Of a stretch of DNA of 64,000 nucleotides, positions 34,767 through 60,678 are shown piece by piece. Position 1 is the stretch's first letter. Every line of letters starts with the position of its first letter. Made by a program: the position numbers and the translations under genes. A model generated the notes under the pieces. The model searched no databases, was not told where the DNA came from, and saw only the letters and a list, made by a program, of their open reading frames with translations. This DNA comes from Vulcanimicrobiota bacterium (GTDB taxonomy: Bacteria; Vulcanimicrobiota; JAJTBE01). The stretch is taken from assembly GCA_021107945.1 (NCBI GenBank), contig JAIORV010000160.1:62001-126000 (forward strand). Reading direction: 5' to 3'.

Positions 34767-34792
34767 TTACACATCACCCGGTTTTCATGATA

Positions 34793-34923
34793 CTATTCAG
34801 ACCTCTCCTTGGGGAAGGACTATTCAATATCGATTTCATGCCGTGTCCCGGCGGGTCGGGAGACGAATAGGGGGGTTGCCTGATTTCATGACGTTTCCCA
34901 GACAGGGGGGCTGACCTGAATAA
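34793..34923. repeat. Element related to the TATTCAGACC repeat
   Basis: Starts TATTCAGACCTCTCC and ends GACCTGAATA, filling the 165-bp spacer between two GspF-like genes. It is a diverged relative of 31703-31809. Confidence 0.6.
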
Positions 34924-34931
34924 TTCCATTT

Positions 34932-35954
34932 TTATTGCAGTTTTCCAATACACTGGTAAAGCGGGAGGAAGACCGATATCACAACAATTGCGACGGCTCC
35001 GAAGAGTATTATCGAGAGTATTGCGGCCAATGCTTTCCCGGATTTATATGACAGGCTTCCCAGATCATCCCGGTACATCGAAGCTAACGTTGAGAGGAAT
35101 TCCTCCAATGCACTTACATTGTTGATTTTCTCGAACATCCAGCTTGCAAGATCGGGGAACATGCCCGATTCCTTTGCGGCAATGGAAAATCTCTTGCCCC
35201 GGACTAAGCTTGCCGACATCATTTTTAATGAAGATTTCACAGGCTCGAAATCAGGATCCTTCGAGAGAATATCGATTGATTCATGCAAAGGAATCCCGTT
35301 CTTCATCATCAGGGTAGTCACTTCAGCAGTTTTTGATGCATAGAATTTCTTCATGAGACTTCCCGACAACGGGAGATGGTATAGGATTTTCTTTGCAATA
35401 TTGCCTCCACTCAAAACGATAATGTCAAATATGGCGAGCATTCCGAAAAATATTAGCAGAAACCCCGGGTTTCTGAATGTATTCGCAAGGAAGATCATTA
35501 TCTGTGTCGGTAATGGAAAGGTCAGATAAGGGTCAATGAACATTCTGGTTACAACAGGCATAAAGAAAATGAAGACATACGCGGTCAGGAGGCACAGGAC
35601 ATTGACCGGAATGGCGGGATACCTGACGGCGGCGCTTACATCCCGTTTCAACACCTCATCCTCATCTATATAATTCGCAACTTCCTCAAGGGTCTCGGCA
35701 AGTCTCTCATTTATCTCGCCAGCCTTGATTATCCTTATTATATATGCGGGGTAAATTTTCTTGCTGGATTCAAGGGCTTTCCAGAAAGGCAAACTTTCCT
35801 CCAATTGAAGGGCGACATTATTAAAAGCTTTTTTCAGATAAGAGTCTTTTAAATCTCCCATTGTATTTCTTATCGCTTTTTTCAGGGGTGTCCCTTTCAT
35901 GGTGAAATATGCCAGTTTCCCTGTGAACCCGGCAAGTTGCAAATTCCTGTTCAT
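34932..35954 (-). CDS. GspF/PilC-like inner-membrane platform protein, paralogue 3
   Basis: 340 residues with the two-halved GspF layout: FTGKLAYFTMKGTPLKKAI and YIIRIIKAGEINERLAETLE, membrane segments near 115-135 and 160-180, the second half TAEVTTLMMKNGIPLHESID, and a C-terminal membrane helix (LAAILSIILFGAVAIVVISV). It would sit in the inner membrane and couple the cytoplasmic ATPase to pilin assembly. It is separated from the ATPase gene by a short repeat-filled spacer. Confidence 0.88.
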   Translation of the reverse strand: MNRNLQLAGFTGKLAYFTMKGTPLKKAIRNTMGDLKDSYLKKAFNNVALQLEESLPFWKALESSKKIYPAYIIRIIKAGEINERLAETLEEVANYIDEDEVLKRDVSAAVRYPAIPVNVLCLLTAYVFIFFMPVVTRMFIDPYLTFPLPTQIMIFLANTFRNPGFLLIFFGMLAIFDIIVLSGGNIAKKILYHLPLSGSLMKKFYASKTAEVTTLMMKNGIPLHESIDILSKDPDFEPVKSSLKMMSASLVRGKRFSIAAKESGMFPDLASWMFEKINNVSALEEFLSTLASMYRDDLGSLSYKSGKALAAILSIILFGAVAIVVISVFLPLYQCIGKLQ

Positions 35955-36003
35955 AATAAGCTCACCTTCATTTTATGATTAATAATTAGCAAGTATTCAG
36001 TCC

Positions 36004-36092
36004 TATTGTAGGAGTGGCATCTTGCCACGAATCGAGGCTACAGATAAAAGGCGTCTTGCCCTGAATCGAGGCTGGAAGCCTCTCCTACAGTA
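36004..36092. repeat. Hairpin repeat 'tgtaggag..ctcctaca' family
   Basis: TGTAGGAGTGGCATCTTGCC at the left and GGCTGGAAGCCTCTCCTACA at the right can pair through their ends; 'aatcgaggct' occurs twice inside. It lies in the 141-bp spacer between the ATPase gene and GspF paralogue 3. Confidence 0.7.
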
Positions 36093-36095
36093 AAT

Positions 36096-37622
36096 TCAAT
36101 AACTATACTGTGGGCAGACTCTTACAATCTCATCAAAATCGGTTATCCCGCTTCTGACCTTTTCAAGGGCATCCTCCCAGAGAAAATTCATCCCTTTCTC
36201 CCTGCAATAATCAAACAGATCCCCGTAAGGTTTTCCTTCCATAATCATTCCGCGGATATTCTCATCAACATTAAGTAATTCAAACACGCCGGTTCTTCCC
36301 GAATACCGGGTTCCCGAGCAGGCGGGACAACCCAGGGAAGTATAATATTTATCAATGCTCTTTCCATATTGCGAGAGGCTCTTCAACAACTCCGGAGGCG
36401 GGCTTGACTCAACACGACATTCGGGGCAGAGCTTCCTGACAAGCCTCTGGTATAGGACGGCTGTGACTGATGACGATGCCATTCCGGGCTTTATCCCCAT
36501 CTCGATTATCCGGGGAAATACGCCCAGTGAATCCCTGGCGTGAAGCGTCGTGAATATCAGGTGTCCCGTGAGGGCGGTTCTGATTGCTGTCTGCGCTGTT
36601 TCGGGGTCCCTTATCTCGCCCACCATCATAATATCCGGGTCAAGTCGAAGGAGCGATTTCAAACCGGCGGCGAATGTAAGCCCCATTATGGGGTTGATCT
36701 GTGTCTGCTGGAATTCCTCGATGGAATATTCGACAGGATCCTCTATCGTTGCGATGTTCACTGTGCCCTCGTAATTGTTGTATATGTGAATGAGTGATGC
36801 AAATATTGTTGTTGTTTTGCCGGATCCGGCGGGGCCGGTCAGTATGACGCATCCCTGTGGCTCACTGATCAACTCCCTGTATGATTTCAACACATTTTCC
36901 GAGATGCCCAGGTCTTCGAGAAAAAGAGGGTTTTTATCGGTATTCAGGATCCTTAGCACCACTTTTTCCCCGAATAGAGTGGGAATTGTGGCGCATCTGA
37001 TATCCATGTCATGATTATCTTCATCAAAATGAAAGCTCCCGTCCTGGGGAGTTGATTTTTTGTATGACGGAAGTTTCGCACGGTTCTTTATGGCGGTCAT
37101 GAGCCTTGCGTAGAAATCGGAATTCATCCTTGCCACTTCCCGGAGAAGCCCGTCAATTCTGTATTGGATAACGGCGTATTCCTTCCGGGGCGTTATGTGA
37201 ATATCGCTTGAATCCAACTGGACTCCCTGGTTTATGAGATATGAAATGACGGGTCTTGCGTCGAAGTCTTTCGAAAGGCTGTCCAGCACCCTGGAAGCTT
37301 CTTTTCGTGCCTGTTCCAGCGTTACCACCTGCTGTTTAATTGCGGCCTTTATTTCCACCAGTGATCCCAGGTGTTTTTTCAGCTCCTCCACGGCGGTTTG
37401 ATCCAACCCCCCGAACAGCACGGATTTTTCGTTTTCCCTGTCAATTTTAAGTGAATATGAGAGCATATTCTTCTGTGCGCTTATTTTTCTTATTTGGGCA
37501 ATATTAATTTTTACCCGGTTTTCGCCGGAAATATTTCTCCTTGTGAACACAAGGTTTTCCCCGTCGGACTCGATCCTCGCGCTTTTAAGAAAGCTCCTGT
37601 TTTCGTAAATCAAGCTTTTCAT
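36096..37622 (-). CDS. GspE/PilB-type secretion ATPase with an unusual N-terminal domain
   Basis: 508 residues. Walker A GPAGSGKT (263-270), the Asp box and Walker B in DPDIMMVGEIRDPETAQTA, the His box TALTGHLIFTTLHARD and the zinc motif LCPECR..CPACSGTRYSGRTG are all present, as in assembly ATPases (GspE/PilB), not retraction ATPases. The usual GspE N-terminal domain is replaced by about 95 residues that read like a small beta-rich, PH-like domain (SLKIDRENEKSVLFGGLDQTAVEELKKHLG); this is inference. It is the only such ATPase here, flanked by two GspF genes on each side. The start lies 2 bp after the GspF paralogue 2 stop. Confidence 0.93.
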   Translation of the reverse strand: MKSLIYENRSFLKSARIESDGENLVFTRRNISGENRVKINIAQIRKISAQKNMLSYSLKIDRENEKSVLFGGLDQTAVEELKKHLGSLVEIKAAIKQQVVTLEQARKEASRVLDSLSKDFDARPVISYLINQGVQLDSSDIHITPRKEYAVIQYRIDGLLREVARMNSDFYARLMTAIKNRAKLPSYKKSTPQDGSFHFDEDNHDMDIRCATIPTLFGEKVVLRILNTDKNPLFLEDLGISENVLKSYRELISEPQGCVILTGPAGSGKTTTIFASLIHIYNNYEGTVNIATIEDPVEYSIEEFQQTQINPIMGLTFAAGLKSLLRLDPDIMMVGEIRDPETAQTAIRTALTGHLIFTTLHARDSLGVFPRIIEMGIKPGMASSSVTAVLYQRLVRKLCPECRVESSPPPELLKSLSQYGKSIDKYYTSLGCPACSGTRYSGRTGVFELLNVDENIRGMIMEGKPYGDLFDYCREKGMNFLWEDALEKVRSGITDFDEIVRVCPQYSY

Positions 37623-37623
37623 G

Positions 37624-38658
37624 TTAGTTAATCGCTCCGGTTAAATTATAGAAGGGCAGGAAGATACATACCACCATGAATCCCACGACACATCCCACCA
37701 CAGCAATGAATACAGGCTCTATGAACCTGAGAGTGCGTTTATAAATTCCTTCGAGATCGTCCTCGATAAACTCGGCGGCTTCGATGAGCGCGTCTGGTAG
37801 GTTCTCATTTTTTTCGCCGTTTTGCACCATAAAGATGAATGTGTTGCTGAAAAAATCGGTCTTTTTCATCGCCGAGGAGAGTTTTTCACCCTGCCTGACA
37901 TATTCCGAGATATTTCCCAGGATGCCTCTTATCGCCGATGATTCTGCGGTTTTGGAAGCAATACCCAACGCCTCCTGCGCCGTCAATCCCTGTTTCATCA
38001 TGAATCCCATTGTCCTGGAGATCCTTGATGTGTATGATTTTATGAACACATCTCTGACGAAGGGAAGCTTCATCAAAAATGAATCAAGCATGGACACCCT
38101 TGTGAATATGAGGAGATCTATAGCAAGGACGACAACTGCAAGTATTACAATAAACACCGGGCTGAAAATAAACTTTGCCGAGGCTATGAAGAAAAGCGTT
38201 GCCGGCGAGACTCGTTGTCCCAATTCCATAATGAAATCCGAATATTGCGTAAACAACGCATTGGAGCAGAAGTAATAGACGGCCAAAACGAATAGAAATG
38301 AGAAATTGAGAATAAGCCCGGGGTAGAATGCCGCAGTCTGGATATTCTTTCTTGCGACTTCAACCGCTTCGAGATATGAAGCCACTTTTTCAAGCACCCC
38401 GGTAAGTGTCTCCGACTCCTCCGCCGCCTCAATCATCTTGACATAATCGGCGGGGAACTGACAGGGATGAGAAGCCATCGCCCCGGACAGGGAATCCCCG
38501 GCCTCCATTCGCTCTTCGACATCCTCAACGGCCTCCCTGAATCGGCGATCCGATATATTGCCCTTTATCTTCTCAAGGGTCTCGGTCAGCGGAGCCCCCA
38601 TTTTTGTGAGATAATACAGGTGCTTTGTGAATGAAATTAATTCTCTTGCCCGATCCAT
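37624..38658 (-). CDS. GspF/PilC-like inner-membrane platform protein, paralogue 2
   Basis: 344 residues and the most canonical of the four: FTKHLYYLTKMGAPLTETLE, SLSGAMASHPCQFPADYVKM, MIEAAEESETLTGVLEKVA, membrane segments near 115-135 and 165-190, second half SRISRTMGFMMKQGLTAQEA and MVQNGEKNENLPDALIEAAE, and the last membrane helix VFIAVVGCVVGFMVVCIFLP. It is directly followed by the ATPase gene (gap 1 bp). Confidence 0.93.
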   Translation of the reverse strand: MDRARELISFTKHLYYLTKMGAPLTETLEKIKGNISDRRFREAVEDVEERMEAGDSLSGAMASHPCQFPADYVKMIEAAEESETLTGVLEKVASYLEAVEVARKNIQTAAFYPGLILNFSFLFVLAVYYFCSNALFTQYSDFIMELGQRVSPATLFFIASAKFIFSPVFIVILAVVVLAIDLLIFTRVSMLDSFLMKLPFVRDVFIKSYTSRISRTMGFMMKQGLTAQEALGIASKTAESSAIRGILGNISEYVRQGEKLSSAMKKTDFFSNTFIFMVQNGEKNENLPDALIEAAEFIEDDLEGIYKRTLRFIEPVFIAVVGCVVGFMVVCIFLPFYNLTGAIN

Positions 38659-38659
38659 G

Positions 38660-38883
38660 TAATTACACCTCGATTTTTAGTTTTATTATTCAACGCAGAG
38701 AGCGCGGAGGACGCAGAGGGCACAAAATCAGTCGTCGGTATTCAGTGGTCATTTATTTATCGGGATGAGGACATCCCTCCTACACCTCTGACATCCATTA
38801 TCCGACATCCGTTTATCGGGACGGGGACGTCCCTCCTACAGATCTGACATCTGACCTCCGACATCCGGCCTCCGTTCTCCATA
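38660..38883. repeat. Repeat block between two GspF-like genes
   Basis: Contains 'cgcagagagcgcggaggac' (38696-38714), two copies of the 29-bp repeat (38756-38784, a diverged one with GGACATCCC, and 38812-38840), and heptad arrays ('ctgacatccattatccgac' and 'gacctccgacatccggcctc') that end three bases from the stop of GspF paralogue 1. Confidence 0.85.
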
Positions 38884-40017
38884 TCAATAAACAATAATAT
38901 CATGCATCTGAACAGTGAGCTTTATCATTGTACTGAAAACTCCGACGGTGAACATACCCACGAATATTCCCAACACGGCGGTTACTCCCACCTCGGTTAT
39001 CCTGAAAAGCCTGGCGGTGGATCTTTCATATTCCTGTGCATAAATATCGCTCATCTGCGCCAATACTTCCGGGAGGTTCTCGGTTTTCTCTCCCAGGCTC
39101 GCCATAAAGATAAAAGTATCGTCAAAAACGCCGGTTCTTTTCAACGCCGATGCAAGCGTCGGCTCGACCACGTTTGCGGCGTCTTTTATGGCCTCGGAAT
39201 AGACGAAGTTGGAGGTGGCGTTTGATGCCAGAATCAATGCCCTGTCAATCGGCATGTTGTCTTTCAATATACTGCTCATTACCTTGCAGAATATTGCGTA
39301 TTCGAAATTTCTTGCTTGTTTTCCAAGAAACGGTATCATTGTCGTGAAGCGATCAATATGATTTCTTATTACCTTGTTCTTCTTCAGAATTACATAGCCT
39401 ACATATGTAATCAGCCCGGCGACAAGTATTATTGGGATAGCATTTCCAACAAATTTGATGAAATGAAAGCCGACAACGGGCGGGCTGACATCCATGCCCC
39501 CAAGCAAGCCCAGGAATGTCGGGGCGACATACTGTGATATAAACCCCACAACCACGGCAATAATGAGAATCAGTATCAATGAGTATCCGCTCATCTGGAA
39601 GGATGAGAGTCTGTAGTCCTTGTTTATCTTGAGGTATGAATTAAGGGTGACAAGGTAATTGTACAGGTTTCCCTCAGACTCGCCGATCCTGACCATATCC
39701 ACATAGTAATTGGGGAATGCCTTTCTCTCACTGTCCAGGGCGTCTCCCAGGGAGCTTCCTCTTTGAATCTTGGTAGTTAGCCTCTCTATGGCTTTGTTGA
39801 TAATTGAAAATCTGTATGATAAAGGTCTGAAGCTCTCCCATCTTATTTGCTGAAGGGCTTGATCCAGTGGGAGCTGGAGTTTGACAAGCTCTGCAAGTTT
39901 GCTGTTAAAAAGATACAGGTCGTCATAATGTCCCCGTCCTCTGAACAGGTCATAGACCTTTCTCCAGAAGATAATGGCGAGGACAAACAGGACTAATATT
40001 ACTGGTATCTGGAACAT
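38884..40017 (-). CDS. GspF/PilC-like inner-membrane platform protein, paralogue 1
   Basis: 377 residues. It differs from the other three by an extra N-terminal membrane helix (MFQIPVILVLFVLAIIFWRK). Then come the usual halves: FNSKLAELVKLQLPLDQALQ, MVRIGESEGNLYNYLVTLNS, membrane segments near 150-175 and 190-215, CKVMSSILKDNMPIDRALIL, MASLGEKTENLPEVLAQMSD and a final helix (VTAVLGIFVGMFTVGVF). It follows the prepilin-like genes by 11 bp and leads the platform-protein genes. Confidence 0.92.
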   Translation of the reverse strand: MFQIPVILVLFVLAIIFWRKVYDLFRGRGHYDDLYLFNSKLAELVKLQLPLDQALQQIRWESFRPLSYRFSIINKAIERLTTKIQRGSSLGDALDSERKAFPNYYVDMVRIGESEGNLYNYLVTLNSYLKINKDYRLSSFQMSGYSLILILIIAVVVGFISQYVAPTFLGLLGGMDVSPPVVGFHFIKFVGNAIPIILVAGLITYVGYVILKKNKVIRNHIDRFTTMIPFLGKQARNFEYAIFCKVMSSILKDNMPIDRALILASNATSNFVYSEAIKDAANVVEPTLASALKRTGVFDDTFIFMASLGEKTENLPEVLAQMSDIYAQEYERSTARLFRITEVGVTAVLGIFVGMFTVGVFSTMIKLTVQMHDIIVY

Positions 40018-40028
40018 GACTTCTTACC

Positions 40029-40451
40029 TCACTTCAGAATGGCGGGTTTTTTGACGGTGATTCCCTCGTAATTTCCCTTGCTGACAAGCTTCACAAACCT
40101 GTTGTCCCTGTAAAAGTATTGCAAGGTGAAGCTTCCGTTATTCAGGAGATCCGGGGAGGTATATGAATACCTTGTGTAGTAGCTGCCCTCTAAGACGATT
40201 TCTTTTTTCAGGCTTAATTTCGGGAAAATTGCCACAGGATTCTTATTTCCATGCTTTTCCCTCATCATTTTACCAAAAGTGACTCCCACATCTGCCATGC
40301 TTTCCGCCGTTTGCCTGCGTTTGAGCCTAATGACTCTCTGGCGTGTAATTTCTATCAGACCGAAGAGTGTAAACTCCATCGCCAGCAGGAACAATGCGAA
40401 AAACAATGTGAAAATCAACAATCCCTTTGTTTTCGAAGCTCTAACCTTCAT
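40029..40451 (-). CDS. Prepilin-like minor component (PilX/GspK-type, atypical)
   Basis: 140 residues. N-terminal SKTKGLLIFTLFFALFLLAM is a single hydrophobic helix after a basic stretch ending in Gly, like a class III prepilin peptide, but the Glu at +5 is missing. A soluble domain of about 95 residues follows. The start overlaps the preceding prepilin stop (ATGA). From its place it is probably a minor pseudopilin. Confidence 0.65.
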   Translation of the reverse strand: MKVRASKTKGLLIFTLFFALFLLAMEFTLFGLIEITRQRVIRLKRRQTAESMADVGVTFGKMMREKHGNKNPVAIFPKLSLKKEIVLEGSYYTRYSYTSPDLLNNGSFTLQYFYRDNRFVKLVSKGNYEGITVKKPAILK

Positions 40452-40933
40452 ATATTGTCACCCTCTTCCGTTGACATTTCTATGTCTTTTATGACCTTGA
40501 AGCATTCGAGCTTCCTCTTATTGATATTCCTGAAGTTATAAATAACATTCATTGTTATAAGCCCGTGCCGGCAAGTCCATACGGCATCTTTAACAGGAAA
40601 CCCGGTAAGCTTCCTTGTCCTGCCTTGCGACTCCCTGCAAATTGCCCCGTCTTTCAATGCATATACAATCTTCTTGCCGTTTTTTGTGATCGTTACACCG
40701 TGATTTCCCGGATTTACCGACGCTTTTCCACCTCGTCGGATATCTCCCTGTATCATCGCCCTTATGTTTGCCACATCAACTTTCATCTCTGCCTGTCGGG
40801 ATGTCTTGATAAACTGCTTGTATGTGGATGCTCCGAATGCCACCACTCCTCCTAAAAATGTGGCGATGATAACAATCACAATCATTAGCTCGATCATTGT
40901 GAATCCACGGTTTTTGTAATTTTTACAACTCAT
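40448..40933 (-). CDS. Type IV prepilin-like protein (minor pseudopilin)
   Basis: 161 residues. The class III signal NRGFTMIELMIVIVIIATFL has cleavage after Gly, Phe at +1 and Glu at +5. The rest has a soluble domain with a pilin-like alpha1-C helix (STYKQFIKTSRQAEMKVDVA). It overlaps the genes on both sides by 4 bp (ATGA), so the three prepilin genes are translationally coupled. Confidence 0.9.
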   Translation of the reverse strand: MSCKNYKNRGFTMIELMIVIVIIATFLGGVVAFGASTYKQFIKTSRQAEMKVDVANIRAMIQGDIRRGGKASVNPGNHGVTITKNGKKIVYALKDGAICRESQGRTRKLTGFPVKDAVWTCRHGLITMNVIYNFRNINKRKLECFKVIKDIEMSTEEGDNI

Positions 40934-41727
40934 TTTTTCACCTTCAGAATTCCAATTTCGATATTGTGTTTCAAGCCATAATTCTCTACAATTTTAACGA
41001 ATTTCATGCCCGTGAGATTTGTTGCGGGCTGCAGTTTCTCGTCAATAAATTCGCTGCTACACACGCTTTTTATAGCTCCGCCGATATATGTAACTCTTAT
41101 AACTTTGCCGGCATATTTTTTATCGAAACAAATTACATTTGAGTCCTCTTTATATGAATAGTCTTTTGACGAAATCGGTGTGAATTTATTGCCTTTTACC
41201 AGTTCAACATTTTCAAGCTTTACGATGGGAGAGTTGAACAACCTGATTTCATACGGCGATTTTTCAGGAACCGTCGCCGCCTCGCCCCGGTCGGGAAGAA
41301 TATACTTATAATTAACAAGAATTTCTTTCCCTTGCAAGTTATTACCAAGAATGACAAGAGTGTTGTTGCCTTCATCCAGGTTGAAGTTTTCAACTGGAAG
41401 ATTCTGTGAAAAGTGCCTGCCTGCGCCGTTTTTATCCCGTGTTGAAATTTTGATGGTATCTTTAATGATATTGTTGTTTGACAGCCTGATTTTGCCGTTT
41501 TTTGGCAGGATGTGAATTTCCGGGGGAATTGAATTGAAGGATTTTGTAGATATGATTTTTTTCTGTGCCTTCATCTGCCTTACTGCATCGCTGTAATGAG
41601 TTTCTCTCGCCATCCAGTTGTAATTCTTGATCAACTTCGCTCCCGTGGTAACTACGATTGCAATTATTGCAATACAAATCATCACCTCGATAAGCGTGAA
41701 TCCCCTTTCCGGGTTATTCGTTTTCAT
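40930..41727 (-). CDS. Type IV prepilin-like protein, first gene of the pilus cluster
   Basis: 265 residues, long for a pseudopilin. Class III signal ERGFTLIEVMICIAIIAIVV (Glu at +5). The soluble part of about 220 residues is beta-rich. GGGAGG lies upstream of the ATG. The spacer before it (41728-41951) is very AT-rich and likely holds the promoter of the whole cluster down to 33732. Confidence 0.9.
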   Translation of the reverse strand: MKTNNPERGFTLIEVMICIAIIAIVVTTGAKLIKNYNWMARETHYSDAVRQMKAQKKIISTKSFNSIPPEIHILPKNGKIRLSNNNIIKDTIKISTRDKNGAGRHFSQNLPVENFNLDEGNNTLVILGNNLQGKEILVNYKYILPDRGEAATVPEKSPYEIRLFNSPIVKLENVELVKGNKFTPISSKDYSYKEDSNVICFDKKYAGKVIRVTYIGGAIKSVCSSEFIDEKLQPATNLTGMKFVKIVENYGLKHNIEIGILKVKK

Positions 41728-41951
41728 TTCATGCCTCCCGGTATATTGGATTTATAATTATTATGTTATTAATATAGTTCTTATTCTGTTAATATAATAA
41801 ACAACCCTGTGTAGAATTTGTTCATAAAATCTTGGAAAAAGACTATAAATGGCGGAGTTTTTTTTGCCGCAAAGAAGCAAAGACCACAAAGGAGAAAAAA
41901 TAACGGATTACGAAGATTGGAGTATAAATGGCATAGAAAGGACCGAGCAAC

Positions 41952-42803
41952 ATGCAGGCAAAAAAATCAGGTGAATTTATAATAAGGCAAATGAAGAGAA
42001 AAGACCTGGATATCGCAGTTGAATGGGCGGCGAGAGAGGGTTGGAATCCGGGATTACATGACTCTGATTCATTCTACTATACGGATCCCGCTGGCTTTTT
42101 TATAGGTGAAATTGACGGTGAGCCGGTGGGGACAATTTCTGCTGTTGCTTATAACGACGAGTTTGGATTTATAGGCTTTTTCATGGTAAAACCTGAATAT
42201 CGGGGGAAAAGATACGGTATTTACCTTGCAAAAGCTGCTCTTGATTATCTTGGCGACAGGAATATCGGACTCGACGGCGTTGTCGCCAAAGTGAAAAATT
42301 ATAAACACTATGGTCTGAAGGTTGCATATCATAACATCCGGTATGAGGGAATCGGTTGTGGAGATCCCATCGATAGAGTAATTAGTCTTGATAAAATCAG
42401 ATTTGAAGACCTTGTTTCATATGATACGAGAATGTTTTCCGCTCCCCGTCCTCAATTCCTGAAAAGATGGATAAAACAGCCTGATGGGAAGGCGGTTGGA
42501 GTCATGAGCGATGGGGAAATCCTTGGATATGGCGTTATAAGAAAGTGTAGGATTGGTTATAAAATCGGCCCCATATTTGCTGATAATCCAGAAGTGGCGG
42601 AAATGATATTCAATTCACTTTCAAGCGGATTTCCGGGACAGCCTGTATTTCTGGATACTCCCGGGGCAAACCCGGAGGCAGTTGAGCTTGCAAACAGGCA
42701 CAAGATGAAGAAGGTTTTTGAAACCGTTCGCATGTATAGTAAAGACACAAATATTCTACCGGTTAAAAATATATTCGGCGTAACAAGCTTTGAGCTGGGA
42801 TGA
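41952..42803 (+). CDS. GNAT acetyltransferase with a second C-terminal domain (YitH-like)
   Basis: 283 residues. The N-terminal GNAT domain includes FIGEIDGEPVGTISAVAY and the acetyl-CoA loop VKPEYRGKRYGIYL. The C-terminal half (KRWIKQPDGKAVGVMSDGEI, GYGVIRKCRIGYKIGPIFA, VFLDTPGANPEAVELANRH) matches the second domain of YitH/Acetyltransf_18-type proteins. The substrate is unknown. AAAGGA precedes the ATG. It is a lone plus-strand gene within the minus-strand pilus region. Confidence 0.88.
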   Translation: MQAKKSGEFIIRQMKRKDLDIAVEWAAREGWNPGLHDSDSFYYTDPAGFFIGEIDGEPVGTISAVAYNDEFGFIGFFMVKPEYRGKRYGIYLAKAALDYLGDRNIGLDGVVAKVKNYKHYGLKVAYHNIRYEGIGCGDPIDRVISLDKIRFEDLVSYDTRMFSAPRPQFLKRWIKQPDGKAVGVMSDGEILGYGVIRKCRIGYKIGPIFADNPEVAEMIFNSLSSGFPGQPVFLDTPGANPEAVELANRHKMKKVFETVRMYSKDTNILPVKNIFGVTSFELG

Positions 42804-42977
42804 AGTTTTTGTTTTAATATAAGCGCAAATAAAGGCCTCCATAAAAATAATTCCCCCAAATAAGCCGACATTGTAAAGTGAGCTCTCCGGAATCCTTTTG
42901 CCATAGAAATTTAGCTCAATGCCGGTTTGGCTGGCAGAAATTATTAAATACTTCCCGCTGATACTTTTTTTAAACTA

Positions 42978-43388
42978 TTATCTTCTGAGTTTTAATCCCA
43001 TTGTCGAGCTATACTGGGGGTAGTTGGTACCAACATTCAACAGTGTATGATTATCACCCCGGCAAAAGAATGTATATGCATCCGGGTTCATTCTGCATGA
43101 AAAACTGGATGTATAGACAGTACTACTTGCCGCCGATATGCAGGATGGTATAAGAATGATATAATCGGGTGTGAGCTTAGTCATTCCTCCCGTGGGATAG
43201 TGCCCCTCGTTGTCCGTGGAATACATCTCCATAGCTGTGCCGATGTTTTTACAGTTGGAAATGCACTGAGTGTATTGCGCTTGTGCCCTTGCGCGCATGT
43301 AATTGGGAACCATAATGGATGCAAGTATCGAAATTATTGAAATAACAATCATCAACTCAATAAGGGTAAATCCCTTTAATCTCTTCAC
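42978..43388 (-). CDS. Type IV major-pilin-like protein
   Basis: 136 residues. The leader MKRLKG is short, then FTLIELMIVISIISILASIM with Glu at +5. The mature protein has the pilin helix (PNYMRARAQAQYTQCISNCK), then YSTDNEGHYPTGG, and cysteines in CISAASS, SFSCR and FFCRGD that could form disulfides. It starts with GTG at 43388, eight bases after GGGAGG. It is separate from the pilus operon but in the same orientation; the clean pilin form suggests it is a major subunit. Confidence 0.92.
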   Translation of the reverse strand: MKRLKGFTLIELMIVISIISILASIMVPNYMRARAQAQYTQCISNCKNIGTAMEMYSTDNEGHYPTGGMTKLTPDYIILIPSCISAASSTVYTSSFSCRMNPDAYTFFCRGDNHTLLNVGTNYPQYSSTMGLKLRR

Positions 43389-48517: not shown

Positions 48518-48546
48518 TTGAAATATTATTTTTTCTCTGGTATAAT
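48518..48546 (+). promoter_or_regulatory. Sigma-70-type extended -10 promoter of the DnaB-like/SGNH locus
   Basis: TTGAAA (48518-48523), a 17-bp spacer, then TATAAT (48541-48546) preceded by TGG, an extended -10. It is 66 bp upstream of the micropeptide ATG and faces right. Confidence 0.8.
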
Positions 48547-48611
48547 TTGGTAAGAAATATAAATGGGTAGATGTTAATTGGGGACCCTGTTTTAATGAAA
48601 TGGAGGTACAG

Positions 48612-48758
48612 ATGGATAAAGTAAAATCCTTTATACAGAAAATGATGGCAAATGCGCTATTTTGGATTTTCAGCATTTTCGCCTCACTGGTTGGATTTAT
48701 CGCAATTTTCGAGAGATTCACCCAATTTTCTGTTGACAAAATATACACTTTGTTTTAA
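48612..48758 (+). CDS. 48-residue membrane micropeptide at the head of the locus
   Basis: ATG 48612 to TAA 48756-48758: MDKVKSFIQKMMANALFWIF, then a hydrophobic run SIFASLVGFIAIF, ending FSVDKIYTLF. One membrane helix with a short amphipathic N-terminal helix. A good GGAGG lies seven bases upstream and a near-consensus promoter 66 bp upstream. It ends 11 bp before the next gene, which lacks its own clear ribosome binding site and may depend on translational coupling. Too short for usual gene finders; no family known. Confidence 0.7.
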   Translation: MDKVKSFIQKMMANALFWIFSIFASLVGFIAIFERFTQFSVDKIYTLF

Positions 48759-48769
48759 AATTCCTTATT

Positions 48770-50050
48770 ATGATGAAATTAAAATACAGATTTTTTACCT
48801 CCATGACATATAAAACAAGTTTTATTTTTTTTATAGCTGTTATTTTTTTTGTTACAGGGGTTTTGGTAGTTCCATTAACAGTAGAAGGGCAGGAAGTTAT
48901 TTCAAAGCCTCCACCCGGAGCTAAAATACCCGAGGGCATACCTTCACCTGTTCCCCCTCAATCGGGGGGCAAAATACCCGAGGGCATACCTTCACCCGTT
49001 CCCCCTCAACCCGGCGATGAGACGGAGACATTTCCCGCAGACGACTCATTCACCCCCATTCCACCGGGTTCCTCACATGTTCCATCGAGATCGGGAGTCG
49101 GCTCAGGTCCCGGGCCGGGAGTGGAGACATCCACAACAAGAAGCGTCAATTCCGGGTTGTCGGTGTCGATCATAGCATCACTTCTACAACTTGTATATAT
49201 TATTATACTGCTTGCAATGGGAGGATTGCTAGGTTTCTATTATTACAAGAGTTTTCTATTGAACCTGCGAATTCATCGTCTTGAACTTCTTATCGAGAAG
49301 AGCGGAATCTCTCCCACATCTAAAGAAGAGCCTCTCCCGTTTTCCTGGGATCAGGCCTTAAAAAGCATTGAGGGCGGATGGACGATGTTTACCGATACAA
49401 ACCGCATTTATGAGCCCGGAGTTGTCGGAATTATTTCCGCGGACGAGAAACTGGCGTTCAAATGTGCGGTCAACCTCATTTACCGGATAATCAGCCTGCA
49501 AAATCTCGCAGTGATATATCTTTCCAAAGAACATGGAGAGGAAGACCTTGGCAAGGCTCTTTTGTCCCTGGAGAGCGGTGTTTCAATAGACAAAATGTCT
49601 CCCGGGGAGCGTGAGGAGTTGGTGGGCAGGTATTCCCTGGAGATGACCAAATACGAAGCCGGGTTGTTCGTTTTCCAGGATTTCAAGATAGATATTGACG
49701 AGCTTTACGAAAATATCCTGAAATTATCGGAAAGCATTGATATTGGGATGATAATTGTTGACGGCCGGGATGTAATATCGGCGGATAATTTTAACGATCT
49801 TATTGGGAGACTCCGGATAATCAGTATAAAAAGCTATATCCCAGTTGTATATATCGACGCATTCAAGGATATGAAACCGGAGAATATTGACGAGGATACA
49901 TTAGCAAGAATTACCGCCTTAATTGAAGTGGAACCCGGCAAGGCTAAGAAGACAATCTCTTTTACGGTTCATAAATTCAAGGGTGATCCCCCGCCTGAAA
50001 GTTTGGATATAAATCCGGATTCGGGAGAGATAACAACCCCGGAATCATAA
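48770..50050 (+). CDS. Membrane-anchored DnaB/RecA-like protein without P-loop, copy 1
   Basis: 426 residues: N-terminal helix (about 16-36), a Pro-rich outer linker with the 13-residue unit KIPEGIPSPVPPQ twice (52-64, 68-80), a second helix (133-157) and a cytoplasmic domain (about 190-426). That domain follows the order of the DnaB helicase C-terminal fold: a start strand GVVGIISADEKLAFK where the P-loop should be but lacks GKT, then LAVIYLSKEHGEEDL, REELVGRYSLEMTKYEAGLF, the Walker-B-like strand IGMIIVDGRD, and SYIPVVYIDAFKD. It is therefore probably unable to hydrolyse ATP. The fold is inference from motif order. It heads the first of two successive pairs with SGNH genes. Confidence 0.65.
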   Translation: MMKLKYRFFTSMTYKTSFIFFIAVIFFVTGVLVVPLTVEGQEVISKPPPGAKIPEGIPSPVPPQSGGKIPEGIPSPVPPQPGDETETFPADDSFTPIPPGSSHVPSRSGVGSGPGPGVETSTTRSVNSGLSVSIIASLLQLVYIIILLAMGGLLGFYYYKSFLLNLRIHRLELLIEKSGISPTSKEEPLPFSWDQALKSIEGGWTMFTDTNRIYEPGVVGIISADEKLAFKCAVNLIYRIISLQNLAVIYLSKEHGEEDLGKALLSLESGVSIDKMSPGEREELVGRYSLEMTKYEAGLFVFQDFKIDIDELYENILKLSESIDIGMIIVDGRDVISADNFNDLIGRLRIISIKSYIPVVYIDAFKDMKPENIDEDTLARITALIEVEPGKAKKTISFTVHKFKGDPPPESLDINPDSGEITTPES

Positions 50051-50076
50051 AATTTTAAGATATCATAGGTGAAAAA

Positions 50077-51189
50077 ATGCCGGAGAATAAAGGAAATAAA
50101 GAATCAAGAATAATTGATAAGAAAGCCCTCAAGGAAGAAGAGCAAAAAAGCTTCTTTAAGAGGCATCCCATTCTGACCGCATTCCTCAAAGCGCTGGCTT
50201 TTCTCGTGGTCCTGTTTGTCATTGGAGAGGTCATGGTAAGGCATATGGAAGTGAAAAGCAGAGCAGTCCCCAAACACGAAGGGGGAATTGAATTCAGACC
50301 TGACCCGGAAATTTTCTGGAAACTTCGCACACATCTTAAAATGTTAATAAAGATGCCCAAAGGTGGGGAGTTCCTTGTCGAAACAAACAGCAAGGGAATA
50401 AGAAATCCCGAGATTCCGCTAAAAAAGCCTTCAAACGGTTATAGAATCGAATGTTATGGGGACTCCATCACATATGGACATGGCGTTGACTCGGAAGATA
50501 CATACGAAATGCAAACTCAGAAAATATTGCGTGAGAAATACGGCGACAAGAAAAATATTGATGTAATAAACTTCGGATGCCCCGGCTATACCGCCCATCA
50601 GGGATGGAGGCTCTTCAAAAGGATCGGTGTCAAATATGAGCCTGATCTTTGTATTATTGGGTTTAACTATGCCGATCCATCTGCCGAGGAAATGAAGGAC
50701 AGCGAGAGAGTGCCAGGTAATCCTTATATCCTCACGATGATGAAATTCTTTTATCAAAGTGATTTTTACCTGCTATTGCGTCAACAGAAAATTACAATCG
50801 ACAGACAGGGCAAAATGCCGGATTATTACCTGAAAGCTGTCCGTGTCTCCGAGGAGGAATACAGAAAATATATGGAGGGCTGGGCTGCCCAGATGAAAAA
50901 GCGAAATGGGCATGTCATATACCTGAGTCTTGCCATGTCATCACCGGATCCATTTGAATATTATGCCAATTACAGGAAAATATGCAAGGATGTTGCAAAA
51001 AAAACAGGCAATTATTATATTGATATGAATACCGTTTTCCAACAAAGCGGTGAAGACTTGAACTCGCTTTTCCTTCTCAGCGTGGCGGAAAATGAGAATA
51101 TTGACAGGATTCACCCCAACGAAGCGGGGTTCGAGCTTATGGCAAAAGCGATTGCAGAGTTGATAGAGAAGGAAAACCTAATCAAGTGA
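50077..51189 (+). CDS. Membrane-anchored SGNH/GDSL hydrolase, triad intact
   Basis: 370 residues. A cytoplasmic basic N-terminus and one helix (about 32-50) place the enzyme outside the membrane. Block I YGDSITYGHG (Ser130), an oxyanion Gly in NFGCPGYTAHQG, the block III-like GFNYADPS (Asn197) and block V DRIHPNEAG (Asp343, His346) form a complete Ser-His-Asp triad. Such anchored SGNH enzymes often remove or transfer acyl groups on envelope glycans (AlgX or DltD-like roles). AGGTG precedes the ATG. It follows the DnaB-like copy 1 gene by 26 bp. Confidence 0.85.
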   Translation: MPENKGNKESRIIDKKALKEEEQKSFFKRHPILTAFLKALAFLVVLFVIGEVMVRHMEVKSRAVPKHEGGIEFRPDPEIFWKLRTHLKMLIKMPKGGEFLVETNSKGIRNPEIPLKKPSNGYRIECYGDSITYGHGVDSEDTYEMQTQKILREKYGDKKNIDVINFGCPGYTAHQGWRLFKRIGVKYEPDLCIIGFNYADPSAEEMKDSERVPGNPYILTMMKFFYQSDFYLLLRQQKITIDRQGKMPDYYLKAVRVSEEEYRKYMEGWAAQMKKRNGHVIYLSLAMSSPDPFEYYANYRKICKDVAKKTGNYYIDMNTVFQQSGEDLNSLFLLSVAENENIDRIHPNEAGFELMAKAIAELIEKENLIK

Positions 51190-51339
51190 TTATGAAAGCA
51201 GGAATATGAGGGAATAAGGAATTACGCCTCTAAGGAAATGAGGAAATAAGGATAACGGATAACGGATAACGGAGGACAGAAGCCAGAGGCCGGAGACCGG
51301 AGGACAGATCCCGTTTCCCATTTCCCGAAAAGTGGCTTC
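51190..51339. repeat. Heptad array downstream of the SGNH gene
   Basis: Includes 'ggataacggataacggataa' (51250-51269) followed by 'cggaggacag', 'aggccggagaccggaggac' and a 'cccgtttcccatttcccg' tract. It sits in the coding-strand orientation of the upstream gene, like the arrays at other gene ends. Confidence 0.75.
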
Positions 51340-51396
51340 GTGGTAAATATCGAAAATGGAATTTCAAATTCACTATTCCCCCATGAGGATGTTTAC

Positions 51397-52647
51397 ATGA
51401 TTGGTAAAAACACTATGAAAAATATCATTAACAAAACAAGATCAGAGGGTTGCCCTCTCCTTGTCGGTATTTTGATTATTATTCTTTTCACATTTATATT
51501 TACATCTTTCTATTGCAGTCAGGCTTTTGCTCAAGGTAAGCCGCCGGCATCCCCTTCAAAAATCGAAACCCATTTCACTGCGCCCACTGGCGCTCCTCCC
51601 GTACAATCAACACCCGACAAAAAAACGGGGAATTTCGAGAGACCCCAGCAAGCTCCCCGCCGGGATTCACAATTGATGAATTCCAATACTACATACCCTC
51701 AATCGGAAGCGAGGCGGGTTCTCATTATCCTTGGTATTCTTGCAGTTATCGGTTTCTATTGGCTTTTCCTTCGTGGAAAAATGAAAAAAATCATTCCCGC
51801 TTTTGGCACGTTATCCGGCAAGATCAAATCAATTGCCGAAAGCTCTCCCGACGAAAAAGCAGTTGCATCAGTCAGGGCCACAGTAGCTATAAAGAATCAG
51901 GATATAATAAGGGATATGGTAATCGAGCTTGAACAAAAAGAAAAAGAAGAGTTAGAGCGATTTCGAAGCTTTTCATTAAAGAGGGGACTTCCACCGCTAC
52001 CAAGAACCGAAGTTCTGGGCATCGAACAGGGGGGGAGCGGTCTTCACATTATCCTGATTGATTCCTATCGAGCCGCATACCCGGTTGTAATGAACCTGCT
52101 CTCATCCTGCTCCCGGATTGACATGCCTCTCTTGTTTTTCTCTTCAAGGATATCGGGAGAGGATATTGCAAGAGGAGTTATGGCTATCGAGATGGGAAAG
52201 CCCTGGGATGACATGGGTGAGCAGGAAAAATACAGGATAACTCGTCAGGTTGAGGGTTTCATGGAAAAATACAGCGGAATTCAAACTGGGAAAAGCTGCA
52301 TGATTGATGAAAAATCTCTCCGCGATTTGATAACGAATCTGAAAACTCATGGTAAACCAACCGCTGTCATCATAGATGATTTTTCATACCTGATAGTTGG
52401 AAATATCAATAATGTTGTCAATGAGCTTAAACTTCTCTCGCATAAAGAGGGAGTTCCTGTTTTTATCATTGACTCAAAGCAAAACAAATCAAATTGGACT
52501 GAAGAATTATCCAGAGGTGTAAAATCATTTATCGAACTTGATGAATCAGAAAATGAGGGCATAACGGTCAACGATTTGCTCCATGATAAAAATGCAATCA
52601 GGAAATTAAATATCGAACCGAACACAGGGAAGCTTATAACATCATAG
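51397..52647 (+). CDS. Membrane-anchored DnaB/RecA-like protein without P-loop, copy 2
   Basis: 416 residues from the ATG at 51397 (GAGGAT upstream); an open frame extends to 51340. Same architecture as copy 1: a first hydrophobic segment (about 20-40, ending QAFAQG), a Pro-rich outer linker (PPASPSK, APTGAPPVQ, RPQQAPRRD), a second helix (107-125), a charged coiled segment (MVIELEQKEKEELERF) and a cytoplasmic domain. The domain has IEQGGSGLHIILIDSYRAA in place of the P-loop, MPLLFFSSRISGEDIARGVM, TAVIIDDFSYLIVGN and GVPVFIIDSKQNKS. No GKT or GKS motif is present in the P-loop position. Sequence identity to copy 1 is low, so the duplication is old. Confidence 0.62.
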   Translation: MIGKNTMKNIINKTRSEGCPLLVGILIIILFTFIFTSFYCSQAFAQGKPPASPSKIETHFTAPTGAPPVQSTPDKKTGNFERPQQAPRRDSQLMNSNTTYPQSEARRVLIILGILAVIGFYWLFLRGKMKKIIPAFGTLSGKIKSIAESSPDEKAVASVRATVAIKNQDIIRDMVIELEQKEKEELERFRSFSLKRGLPPLPRTEVLGIEQGGSGLHIILIDSYRAAYPVVMNLLSSCSRIDMPLLFFSSRISGEDIARGVMAIEMGKPWDDMGEQEKYRITRQVEGFMEKYSGIQTGKSCMIDEKSLRDLITNLKTHGKPTAVIIDDFSYLIVGNINNVVNELKLLSHKEGVPVFIIDSKQNKSNWTEELSRGVKSFIELDESENEGITVNDLLHDKNAIRKLNIEPNTGKLITS

Positions 52648-52677
52648 TATATCTACTGCAACGGGAGTAACATAACC

Positions 52678-53931
52678 ATGAGAACCTCGGACATATACAA
52701 AGCCAAATCCGGCAAAAAGCTCCTGTTTATCCAGGTGATTTTTAATATTGTCATTGTAGTATTAATACTTATAGTCTTTGAATTTATACTCCAGGGATTC
52801 GGCAAATCAGATAAAAAATCAACATTTGAGCCTCACCCCACGCTCTACTGGAAGCTTTCACCCAATCTTATGAACCACAAATATGAAGTAGATAACACTT
52901 CCTGCAGGGTTGACACTAACTCTGACGGTTTCAGGAATGAAAAGGTGGATGTTAAGAGAAACGAGAGAAGCTTTCGGATCGTTTGCATCGGCGATGAGAG
53001 CACTTTTGGCTCCGGCGTATTACAATCAGAGACATTTCCAAAGATACTCCAGAATAATATAAGAAAGAGATATCATTTTTTTATAACAGAAGTTATAAAT
53101 GCCGGTGTCCAGGGATATTCATCATACCAGGGAGTAAGGATGTTAAAGGAATATTGCATAAAATACAAACCCGATATTGTAGTTGTTTATTTTATGCATA
53201 ATGATTTTGCAATGGGCACAAAAGAGGATAAAGCAAGGATTTCAGATAATTCATTGGCGGTCAAAATAAAGAAAATCCTTTATAAATCCCACATATTTAT
53301 GACAATAAGGAATTACATACTCGATAAGTTATACAAGCATACAGCCAGAGGAACGGAACCCAAGGGAGTTCATCGCGTTTCAACAGAAGATTTCAAAAAA
53401 AACCTGGATGAGATGAGTCGCATTGCAACAGAAAACGGTGCAAAACTTATTTTTGTCAACCCGCAGGATGAAGAAGATATAAAGGATAAAAAAACATATC
53501 TGAAATACCGGAATATAATAAGGTCTGTCGCAAATAAAAACGGATATATTATCAATCTCATGACTTCTTTCGAGAAAAATAATATATTTTTTCTTCCCAG
53601 TTCAAATCTCCCCGGCATGATTGGGCATAAGGCCATAGCAGACATGTTATTTGCCAAGATCAAATATAAGTCTCTGATGCCTCAGAAGGCCGAGGGATCG
53701 AAGGCAAAGGTGAAGCTTCCCCCAAGAATAGATTTGCAACCGGGGAAACAACTCCCTGTTACCGGAGAAAAACACAGTGATGGGAAACCACGTCCAAAAG
53801 GCAAGCCCCCGGAGGGTAAGAAACCATTTGGCGAGGGAGGATCGCCTCCAGCGAATGAACAAATATTACCACCGCAAAGACCCAACGATGTTCCCGGAAA
53901 ACCTCAGGGGCAGGAAGATTTCTATTTTTAA
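52678..53931 (+). CDS. SGNH-fold protein with a degenerate catalytic triad
   Basis: 417 residues: an N-terminal helix (about 14-38), an SGNH domain and a Pro/Lys/Gly-rich C-terminal tail (about 340-417). Block I reads IGDESTFGSGV, so Glu107 stands where the nucleophilic Ser should be (compare YGDSITYGHGV in the sister gene); a Ser follows one position later. In block V, SSNLPGMIGHKA has Leu311 where His and Ser308 where Asp would be. Block III keeps FMHNDF. It is very likely a pseudoenzyme, or uses another residue. It pairs with DnaB-like copy 2, as the intact SGNH gene pairs with copy 1. Confidence 0.78.
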   Translation: MRTSDIYKAKSGKKLLFIQVIFNIVIVVLILIVFEFILQGFGKSDKKSTFEPHPTLYWKLSPNLMNHKYEVDNTSCRVDTNSDGFRNEKVDVKRNERSFRIVCIGDESTFGSGVLQSETFPKILQNNIRKRYHFFITEVINAGVQGYSSYQGVRMLKEYCIKYKPDIVVVYFMHNDFAMGTKEDKARISDNSLAVKIKKILYKSHIFMTIRNYILDKLYKHTARGTEPKGVHRVSTEDFKKNLDEMSRIATENGAKLIFVNPQDEEDIKDKKTYLKYRNIIRSVANKNGYIINLMTSFEKNNIFFLPSSNLPGMIGHKAIADMLFAKIKYKSLMPQKAEGSKAKVKLPPRIDLQPGKQLPVTGEKHSDGKPRPKGKPPEGKKPFGEGGSPPANEQILPPQRPNDVPGKPQGQEDFYF

Positions 53932-54056
53932 TAGAATATGTTTACTTTTTCAATGCAAGGGTAATTTGCATAAATAAAAGATAGCATATGCAGGGAAAAT
54001 CGTGTATGGGAAAAGAATAGTATCATCCGAAGAAGTGAATTCAACGGAGGAATGAA

Positions 54057-55097
54057 ATGAAGCGTACGAACGAAAAAGCATCGGGACATTTAAGCGTTAT
54101 TGTAATAATCTTTCTTATCATAGCAATCGGCGCGGGCTTATTATTTATATCAGGTTGTACCGGTGAGGAGCTTAAGAAATTCAACCTGGGATACAAGGTC
54201 TATATCCCGAACCTTTCCGGCAAATCCATTACAGTGATACCTGAAAAAGAGAGTGATGAGCCATTTTTTATTGATATGTCCGTAAATCCTGTTTTTATTA
54301 AGCACCTTCCCGGCAGTGATTATATTTATATTCTGCTCGACGGGACGAATGACATAGCGATTCTGGATACGAAAGAGGACGTAATAACAGATAAATTCCG
54401 CTTTGAAGTGGGCGTAACATCCTCCACAAACAATCGAATAAAATTTAATTCGGACGGCACAAGAGGCTATGTGACCACAAGTTATCAGGCTTCCGGGGTT
54501 GCAGTTCTGGATACTTCTGATAATTCATTTGTTGACGGGATAAATGTCAACTCGACAACTGTTGACAGGATGTTTTTCTCAAGCAGTGAGAACAGGCTGT
54601 TTGCAACAGACCCTGATAAAAAGAAAATATACTCCCTGGACACGAATTCAAATGAACTTGTGGAAGAGATAGATGTGCCGGAGAGCTATTCCATAGCATA
54701 CTTTGATAAAAACAACTCGCAGTTTTTCATGGCGGAGACAGGACCAAAAGCGACGGTAAAATTATTTGATATGACCGATAATACATTTGTGAAGAGAGCG
54801 GAGAATGTTGTGGATGATGTAAAAAGACTCATGCCTTCCTCCGACGGGACAAAGCTTTATGTTCTCGGGTCTTCTGAGATGGCGATAATAACGCTGTCTG
54901 ATTTTACCGTTGATGAGGTAATATCCCTTGATTACCGTGATCCTGTTGACTTCAGATTCCTGCCCGACAAATCATTTATCCTGATTCCGTCAGGTGCGGC
55001 AAACCTCACCATGATAATGAATCCCGGGGATTATTCAACAGAGGAGACCATCGAGACGGAAAGCGATCCGGGTGAAATGGTTATTATATCTGATTAA
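54057..55097 (+). CDS. Beta-propeller lipoprotein (YVTN/YNCE-like)
   Basis: 346 residues. Lipobox LLFISGC (Cys34). The mature part is a repeated strand pattern typical of YVTN-type propellers: YKVYIPNLSGKSITVI, YIYILLDGTNDIAILDT, RGYVTTSYQASGVAVLDT, NRLFATDPDKKKIYSLDT, TKLYVLGSSEMAIITL. Such proteins bind partners at the cell surface. GGAGG lies seven bases before the ATG. It ends the plus-strand locus and its stop abuts that of ablB. Role unknown; the context suggests a surface component of the SGNH/DnaB-like locus. Confidence 0.82.
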   Translation: MKRTNEKASGHLSVIVIIFLIIAIGAGLLFISGCTGEELKKFNLGYKVYIPNLSGKSITVIPEKESDEPFFIDMSVNPVFIKHLPGSDYIYILLDGTNDIAILDTKEDVITDKFRFEVGVTSSTNNRIKFNSDGTRGYVTTSYQASGVAVLDTSDNSFVDGINVNSTTVDRMFFSSSENRLFATDPDKKKIYSLDTNSNELVEEIDVPESYSIAYFDKNNSQFFMAETGPKATVKLFDMTDNTFVKRAENVVDDVKRLMPSSDGTKLYVLGSSEMAIITLSDFTVDEVISLDYRDPVDFRFLPDKSFILIPSGAANLTMIMNPGDYSTEETIETESDPGEMVIISD

Positions 55098-60433: not shown

Positions 60434-60678
60434 GGAGGACAGAGGACGGATAGTGGTTATCGTTTACCGTAAGGTTTAATTTTACCACGGAGGCACGGAG
60501 AACACGAAGAGAAACAGGAAATGAGAAATTGGAGGTTGGAATTCCATTTTCCATTTTCCGTTATCCGTTTCCGTTTATCGGGACGGGGACGTCCCTCCTA
60601 CAATTTCGACATCTGACCTCCGTCATCCGTCATCCGTTCTCCGTTCTCCGTTCTCCATTATCCATTTTCCCTCATCCG
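60434..60678. repeat. Repeat block between two gene ends
   Basis: Contains 'accacggaggcacggagaac' (60484-60503), the 29-bp repeat copy 8 (60574-60602), and thirteen heptads (60607-60697) such as cgtcatc, cgttctc, cgttatc and cgacctc. The last ones overlap the 3' end of leuD. Confidence 0.85.

Follow-up and report, generated by a model that had tools for sequence, protein, structure and literature searches.

What might a small transmembrane peptide, two membrane-anchored relatives of a replicative helicase and two SGNH proteins be doing side by side in one bacterial genome? The question is raised by six genes at positions 48612–55097 (+ strand) of the window, i.e., the whole 64,000-nucleotide stretch of DNA that was analysed (bases 62001–126000 of contig 1), in a 5.56 Mb, 98.6% complete genome that is the sole member of its family among the Eremiobacterota genomes searched. 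As related genomes retain the gene set, it probably encodes previously unrecognised machinery for the chemical decoration of surface sugars. The anatomy behind this reading, namely the folds, the lost and kept active-site residues, the neighbourhoods and the co-occurrence of the genes, is solid.

Anatomy of the locus

All six genes that a sequence-only reading had placed here were found as open reading frames on the + strand. They encode, in order, a 48-aa membrane peptide with a single helix (48612..48758, with GGAGG just 5' of the ATG; ten further Eremiobacterota genomes have homologues), the pseudo-DnaB protein A1 (48770..50050), the N-terminally anchored SGNH/GDSL protein SGNH1 (50077..51189), the second pseudo-DnaB protein A2 (51397..52647; a GTG at 51340, giving a longer ORF, is also a possible start), the anchored pseudo-SGNH protein SGNH2 with a Pro-rich C-terminal tail (52678..53931), and a lipoprotein with the lipobox ISGC at Cys34 and a YncE-like beta-propeller (54057..55097; NCBIfam YncE 2.5e-8, far below the family cut-off). 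One strong promoter had been proposed for all six, and a promoter-like site, TTGAAA-17-TATAAT with an extended TG, does lie at 48518..48546 on the + strand (11/12 matches, consensus match only); however, intergenic gaps of 150–207 nt ahead of A2 and 125 nt ahead of the propeller gene leave a single transcript unproven. The only terminator-like site on the + strand, also a consensus match only, lies inside A2, and the window contains no tRNA or Rfam match. The propeller had been counted with the set; it is not supported as a conserved part, since no counterpart was noticed in the A1 loci of relatives, and its link to the system is unproven. Intergenic stretches of the GGATAACGGATAACGGAGGACAG type look alike at 51240–51330 and ~60530–60650 of the window, a possible dispersed repeat. 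Elsewhere in the window, on the − strand, a type IV pilus/T2SS-like cluster (33732–43388; translations read by eye) has one GspE-type ATPase, several prepilin-like genes and four GspF/PilC-like genes (33732, 34932, 37624 and 38884), four platform paralogues per ATPase being unusual, and a 906-aa protein (15207–17927, by eye) fuses a zinc ribbon and a Ser/Thr kinase to a long ankyrin-type repeat array.

A1 consists of a probable signal peptide (residues 1–40), a Pro-rich outer stretch, a TM helix (~132–155) and a cytoplasmic domain (~193–422) resembling the C-terminal domain of DnaB, and A2 has the same layout. Pfam DnaB_C matches A1 with an E-value of 1.5e-4 (21.7 bits, under the gathering score of 27), and a profile built from ten A1 homologues, when searched against PDB sequences, has nothing but replicative helicases among its top ten matches (best 1.8e-5). 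The AlphaFold model of A1 has a pLDDT of ~80–91 over most of the domain and matches DnaB in Foldseek at 6.5e-13. The A2 model is weaker (~72 in the domain), with best Foldseek matches that are again all DnaB (3.9e-10), and it is not fully independent of A1, since the A2 alignment includes A1 homologues. The A1 profile aligns with A2 at an hhalign E-value of 1.2e-14; the two proteins are ~20% identical. The DnaB/RecA-like cytoplasmic fold suggested by the earlier reading is borne out for both proteins by profile search and by AlphaFold with Foldseek; structure prediction gave an unrelated fold for neither.

The Walker A P-loop GxxxxGK[ST] is missing in 19/19 A-type proteins; neither cytoplasmic domain has GKT or GKS at the P-loop position, just as had been noticed from the letters, and the sole GKS in A2 (residue 298) lies away from it. 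A1 and A2 are therefore, by sequence, pseudo-ATPases. The Asp at the Walker B position (Asp331) is invariant across ten A1 homologues. In view of the missing P-loop and the membrane anchor, A1 was rejected as a true helicase. In genomes of family f10, the outer segment of A1 is reduced to about ten residues; an outer part this short in some homologues, together with the DnaB fold, led us to reject a polysaccharide co-polymerase or BY-kinase. The two-helix membrane anchor that had been proposed stands as far as the TM helix and Pro-rich outer stretch go, but the N-terminal helix of A1 and A2 is probably a signal peptide: read by eye, the first hydrophobic stretch of most A-type homologues closes with an AxA-like site followed by Q or E (e.g., AFA/QG and VWA/QG). 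We read mature A1 as a putative single-pass N-out/C-in membrane protein.

SGNH1 (Pfam Lipase_GDSL_2, 3.8e-16) has, by motif alignment, Ser130 (GDS), Asp343 and His346 (DxxH) all intact. Its block III reads NYAD where several paralogues read NND or HND, and the oxyanion-hole Asn of this block appears to be replaced. SGNH2 (Pfam, 6.1e-9) carries Glu107 for Ser (GDE for GDS), and its block V DxxH is gone, with PSSNLPG at 307–313; with the catalytic residues gone, the acyl-group chemistry once proposed for this second SGNH protein falls away. Thirteen other SGNH paralogues examined in the genome are unlike SGNH2 in their catalytic motifs, one of them having GES. In a phylogenetic tree, SGNH1 groups with the A1-linked SGNH proteins of family f13 (support 100/98), two SGNH proteins of genome G017 are sister to the SGNH1 clade (88/85), and SGNH2 is placed elsewhere. 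Ser, Asp and His are kept in the A1-linked SGNH of four relatives; that of G042 has GDE for GDS, so catalysis may be dispensable in G042. The P0003 search of the genome contig collection gave no match. The window's genome (G000; L012–L041) encodes 15 LA_2490/LA_2486-like SGNH proteins, two of them in the window and two tandem pairs on contigs C75 and C22.

Neighbourhoods in related genomes

A1 occurs in 11/149 Eremiobacterota genomes, the window's own included. A neighbourhood survey found A1 beside an orthologue of SGNH1 in five other genomes from two genera, confirming that the pairing is conserved. Five f13 genomes share the order A1-SGNH-A2'-pseudoMBL-GT-C, in which A2' is a divergent A-type protein (A1 versus A2', hhalign 3e-9). 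This arrangement does not support the duplicated pair as a conserved unit, as relatives have A2' after SGNH without a second SGNH. The tandem repetition seen in the window is upheld by the shared architecture of A1 and A2 but not by their low identity, nor by SGNH1 and SGNH2, which are not sister genes; a recent duplication is rejected, given the 20% identity of A1 and A2 and the position of SGNH2 outside the SGNH1 clade.

Other loci combine the parts differently. Genomes of f10 have A1-pseudoMBL(-radical SAM-GT2) and G024 has A1-pseudoMBL-GT-C, in both cases with no SGNH adjoining A1, and G004 has peptide-A1-A1b-pseudoMBL-flippase-like-PMT. The pseudoMBL gene is present in every A1 neighbourhood except that of the window. 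Profile matches give its 352-aa product the fold of a metallo-beta-lactamase (7dck, 1.6e-8; NCBIfam ComEC, 2e-4), with the HxHxDH motif replaced and the metal ligands lost. In the window's genome, contig C29 holds a third pseudo-DnaB gene (hhalign 2.7e-7), followed by the only carbamoyltransferase gene of the genome and then by a pseudoMBL gene and two GT-C genes; ahead of the carbamoyltransferase gene is a small one whose product, read by eye, looks like the end of SxtJ and has no Pfam match. From the gene order in relatives, we take the system to occupy two loci in this genome, the window operon and C29, possibly working jointly. Radical SAM genes occur near the cluster in f13, f10, G004 (one with a PqqD domain) and on C29. 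Homologues of the GT-C proteins in Myxococcota have no A1 beside them; a single weak A1 match, in G149, is possibly that genome's own DnaB. An ankyrin protein adjoins the GT-C genes on C29 (L063, 15752–16618).

The microprotein and the DUF5989 peptides

The 48-aa microprotein is the most informative element of the set; it is conserved, which the sequence-only reading had not noted. It ends in the hexapeptide KIYTLF (48738–48755), with Tyr45 as a candidate acyl-shuttle residue, and its charge distribution suggests an N-in/C-out topology. The sequence has N-A-x-F-W-I in the helix and V-D-K-[IV]-Y-x-[LI]-F-COOH at the end, with 15 invariant positions among three homologues. All nine distinct members compared end in Y-x-[LI]-F, against a background of 0/588 called genes ending in Y-x-x-F; small substitutions occur in the G004 member. 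By profile, the family is present in 11/149 Eremiobacterota genomes, 10 of them with A1; conversely, 10/11 A1 genomes carry it, the exception being G048, where the contig stops at A1. This co-occurrence has a hypergeometric probability of 1e-13 by genome and 5e-8 by genus (statistics that ignore phylogeny). Four genomes (the window's own, G004, G012 and G046), which represent three families, have the gene directly 5' of A1, and in G017 it lies directly before the two SGNH genes of the SGNH1 sister clade. In f13, the microprotein genes lie away from A1, partly beside an Orn/Lys/Arg decarboxylase-like gene, a placement unexplained by a relay between the peptide and SGNH1. Copies adjoining such a decarboxylase-like gene (L087–L092 in G024, G030, G034, G036 and G042) have no SGNH or pseudo-DnaB gene nearby, and several also have a SpoIIIAA-like ATPase gene (named by eye).

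DltX and PatA have been shown to share the acyl-shuttle motif FXYXXF (PMC12148441). The first Phe of this motif is missing in all members of the microprotein family, with Lys43 at this position in the window peptide. The motif is complete in DUF5989 peptides (PF19451), 10/10 of which end in FXYXXF when aligned, and most strong DUF5989 matches lie within 1.5 kb of a carbamoyltransferase match (L115–L135). We hypothesise that DUF5989 peptides are, in general and independently of the window, acyl-shuttle-type microproteins of carbamoyltransferase cassettes; our literature search, which covered few subscription papers, found nothing that links DltX with SxtK or mentions DUF5989. The window microprotein was rejected as a DUF5989 member, as it has no Pfam match. 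Its hhalign score against the DUF5989 profile is 18.0 (block-shuffled mean 10.5, sd 2.5, maximum 18.2), a marginal likeness with which the families may be homologous or merely alike. One locus of G017 encodes the microprotein, three SGNH proteins, SxtJ (2.3e-12), a carbamoyltransferase and a true DUF5989 (1.5e-14). DUF5989 and the carbamoyltransferase lie within 4 kb of the microprotein gene and the two SGNH genes behind it, SxtJ is close by, and the cassette showed no pseudo-DnaB. DUF5989 was not found in the window's own genome, nor was MBOAT (PF03062), for which positive controls were detected, and an MBOAT partner encoded there was rejected on this ground; MBOAT is present in 6/11 other genomes.

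A possible transfer route, its rivals and known systems

Our leading reading, which we hold tentatively and at somewhat under an even chance, is an envelope-glycan modification complex in which a group passes from the microprotein Tyr to the SGNH1 Ser on a pseudo-DnaB scaffold. The topology and the complex are inferred from the anatomy, and so are the Tyr-to-Ser transfer, the group it would move and its substrate. SGNH1, outside the membrane, would be an O-acyl, possibly O-carbamoyl, transferase acting via Ser130, and the microprotein would, like DltX, carry the acyl or carbamoyl group to it on the extracytoplasmic C-terminal Tyr45. At the cytoplasmic face, A1 and A2 would form a hydrolysis-dead, DnaB-type oligomeric platform holding the microprotein, the SGNH proteins and membrane enzymes, and a regulatory ligand may bind to them. 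The model for such a role is BcsE in cellulose modification, with its dead RecA-like domain and its TM peptide partner BcsF. SGNH2 would be a subunit without catalytic activity that perhaps binds glycan. The proteins for donor supply and glycan assembly, i.e., the carbamoyltransferase, pseudo-metallo-beta-lactamase, GT-C and radical SAM proteins, would be encoded on C29 beside the third pseudo-DnaB. Carbamoyl as the transferred group is suggested by gene neighbourhood only. Several points weigh against the relay. We know of no route by which a cytosolic carbamoyltransferase could serve an extracytoplasmic Tyr; MBOAT, the kind of enzyme that is known to load a Tyr of this sort, was not found in the genome; and the first Phe of FXYXXF is missing from the peptide, whose DUF5989 profile likeness is marginal. 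The doubtful block III Asn of SGNH1, the GDE of the A1-linked SGNH in G042, the f13 microprotein genes away from A1 and the cytoplasmic position of the BcsF tail count against it as well.

Nearly as likely is a pure scaffold or sensor complex resembling BcsE-BcsF, in which A1, A2 and the microprotein recruit and regulate the GT-C glycosyltransferases, the peptide plays no covalent part, and the SGNH and MBL proteins are pseudo-enzymes that bind glycan. Dead enzymes do recur in the system (pseudo-DnaB, pseudo-SGNH2, the G042 SGNH with GDE, pseudo-MBL), the A1 loci of f10 and G024 keep the pseudo-MBL without an SGNH, and BcsE provides a precedent; the retention of Ser, Asp and His in SGNH1 and the SGNH of four relatives argues the other way, as does the microprotein, whose most conserved part is the C-terminus with its shuttle-type Tyr rather than the cytoplasmic tail.

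SGNH/GDSL proteins are often hydrolases, and SGNH1 might accordingly be an ordinary surface glycan esterase (deacylase or deacetylase) that shares an operon by chance with a pseudo-DnaB engaged in another process. Thirteen further SGNH paralogues in the genome have no adjoining pseudo-DnaB, and chance could account for the linkage seen in the window by itself, but the A1-SGNH linkage in five genomes of two genera, with SGNH proteins orthologous to SGNH1, makes this explanation unlikely. We consider it more improbable still that PqqD/SPASM radical SAM enzymes modify a peptide while GT-C and SGNH proteins glycosylate and acylate a surface protein instead of a polysaccharide. The recurrence of radical SAM genes near the cluster (f13, f10, G004 with its PqqD domain, C29) and the PMT-type GT-C enzymes in G004 fit such protein modification; however, the radical SAM subfamilies differ between genomes, none is encoded in the window operon, and no precursor peptide was recognised.

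Returning to the Tyr-to-Ser relay, a wider version of it is more doubtful: a trans-envelope machine, so far seen only in Eremiobacterota in a survey of that phylum and a few other genomes, would perform MBOAT-independent acyl or carbamoyl transfer via a Tyr-ended microprotein to an SGNH protein on an ATP-dead DnaB platform, and DUF5989/SxtK-type peptides would by extension be DltX-like shuttles. The trans-envelope complex of the earlier reading remains plausible, having an experimentally known analogue in BcsE-BcsF-BcsG, but without its acyl chemistry for SGNH2, its propeller and its duplicated pair. The literature search, again covering few subscription papers, found no description of a membrane-anchored pseudo-DnaB with an SGNH protein; the A1 family and the gene combination appear undescribed, and their parts and logic resemble the Bcs and Dlt systems. 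A DnaB-type fold seems to have been recruited as a dead, membrane-anchored part of an apparent envelope system, in parallel to BcsE and apparently independently. The comparison also points to testable chemistry for DUF5989, annotated and uncharacterised, whose end is the exact DltX/PatA shuttle motif and whose genes lie beside carbamoyltransferase and SGNH genes.

A1 and A2 share with DnaB the fold over its C-terminal domain and the Asp at the Walker B position; unlike DnaB, they have no P-loop and no DnaB N-terminal domain, are membrane-anchored and lie outside a replication context. The sxtI-J-K-L cassettes combine a carbamoyltransferase, SxtJ (PF19588), DUF5989 (PF19451) and GDSL, and the G017 cassette of this type holds the microprotein and the SGNH1 sister clade; the window differs in that its genome has no DUF5989 and its peptide is below Pfam detection, and the G017 cassette differs in turn, with no pseudo-DnaB seen. 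Like Dlt (DltX-DltB-DltD) and the PatA/PatB MBOAT-SGNH acyltransferases, the window has an anchored SGNH protein with Ser, Asp and His, encoded near a small TM microprotein whose C-terminus, like that of DltX, carries a Tyr motif, but no MBOAT was found in the genome, KIYTLF stands instead of FXYXXF, and a pseudo-DnaB is not part of Dlt or Pat as described. BcsE-BcsF-BcsG, of the E. coli-type cellulose secretion system, comprises a catalytically incompetent, Walker A-less RecA-like NTPase domain (compared with DnaB/KaiC), a short single-TM peptide from the same operon and a membrane-anchored transferase modifying an exported polysaccharide (PMC7439463, PMC11470070), and the window set too has a P-loop-less DnaB-like domain, a short TM peptide and an anchored transferase-like protein. 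In contrast to BcsE, A1 has its own TM helix and no degenerate REC-GGDEF/c-di-GMP module (RxxD), and neither Pfam nor the PDB profile search gave a BcsE family match for P0002 or P0004. The transferase-like partner is an SGNH protein and not a pEtN transferase as in BcsG, no cellulose synthase was noticed beside the set, and BcsF interacts through a cytoplasmic tail, on the other side of the membrane from the end of a DltX-type peptide. For a dead RecA-like domain paired with a TM peptide, the strongest precedent is BcsE-BcsF in modified-cellulose secretion; for the end of the peptide it is DltX.
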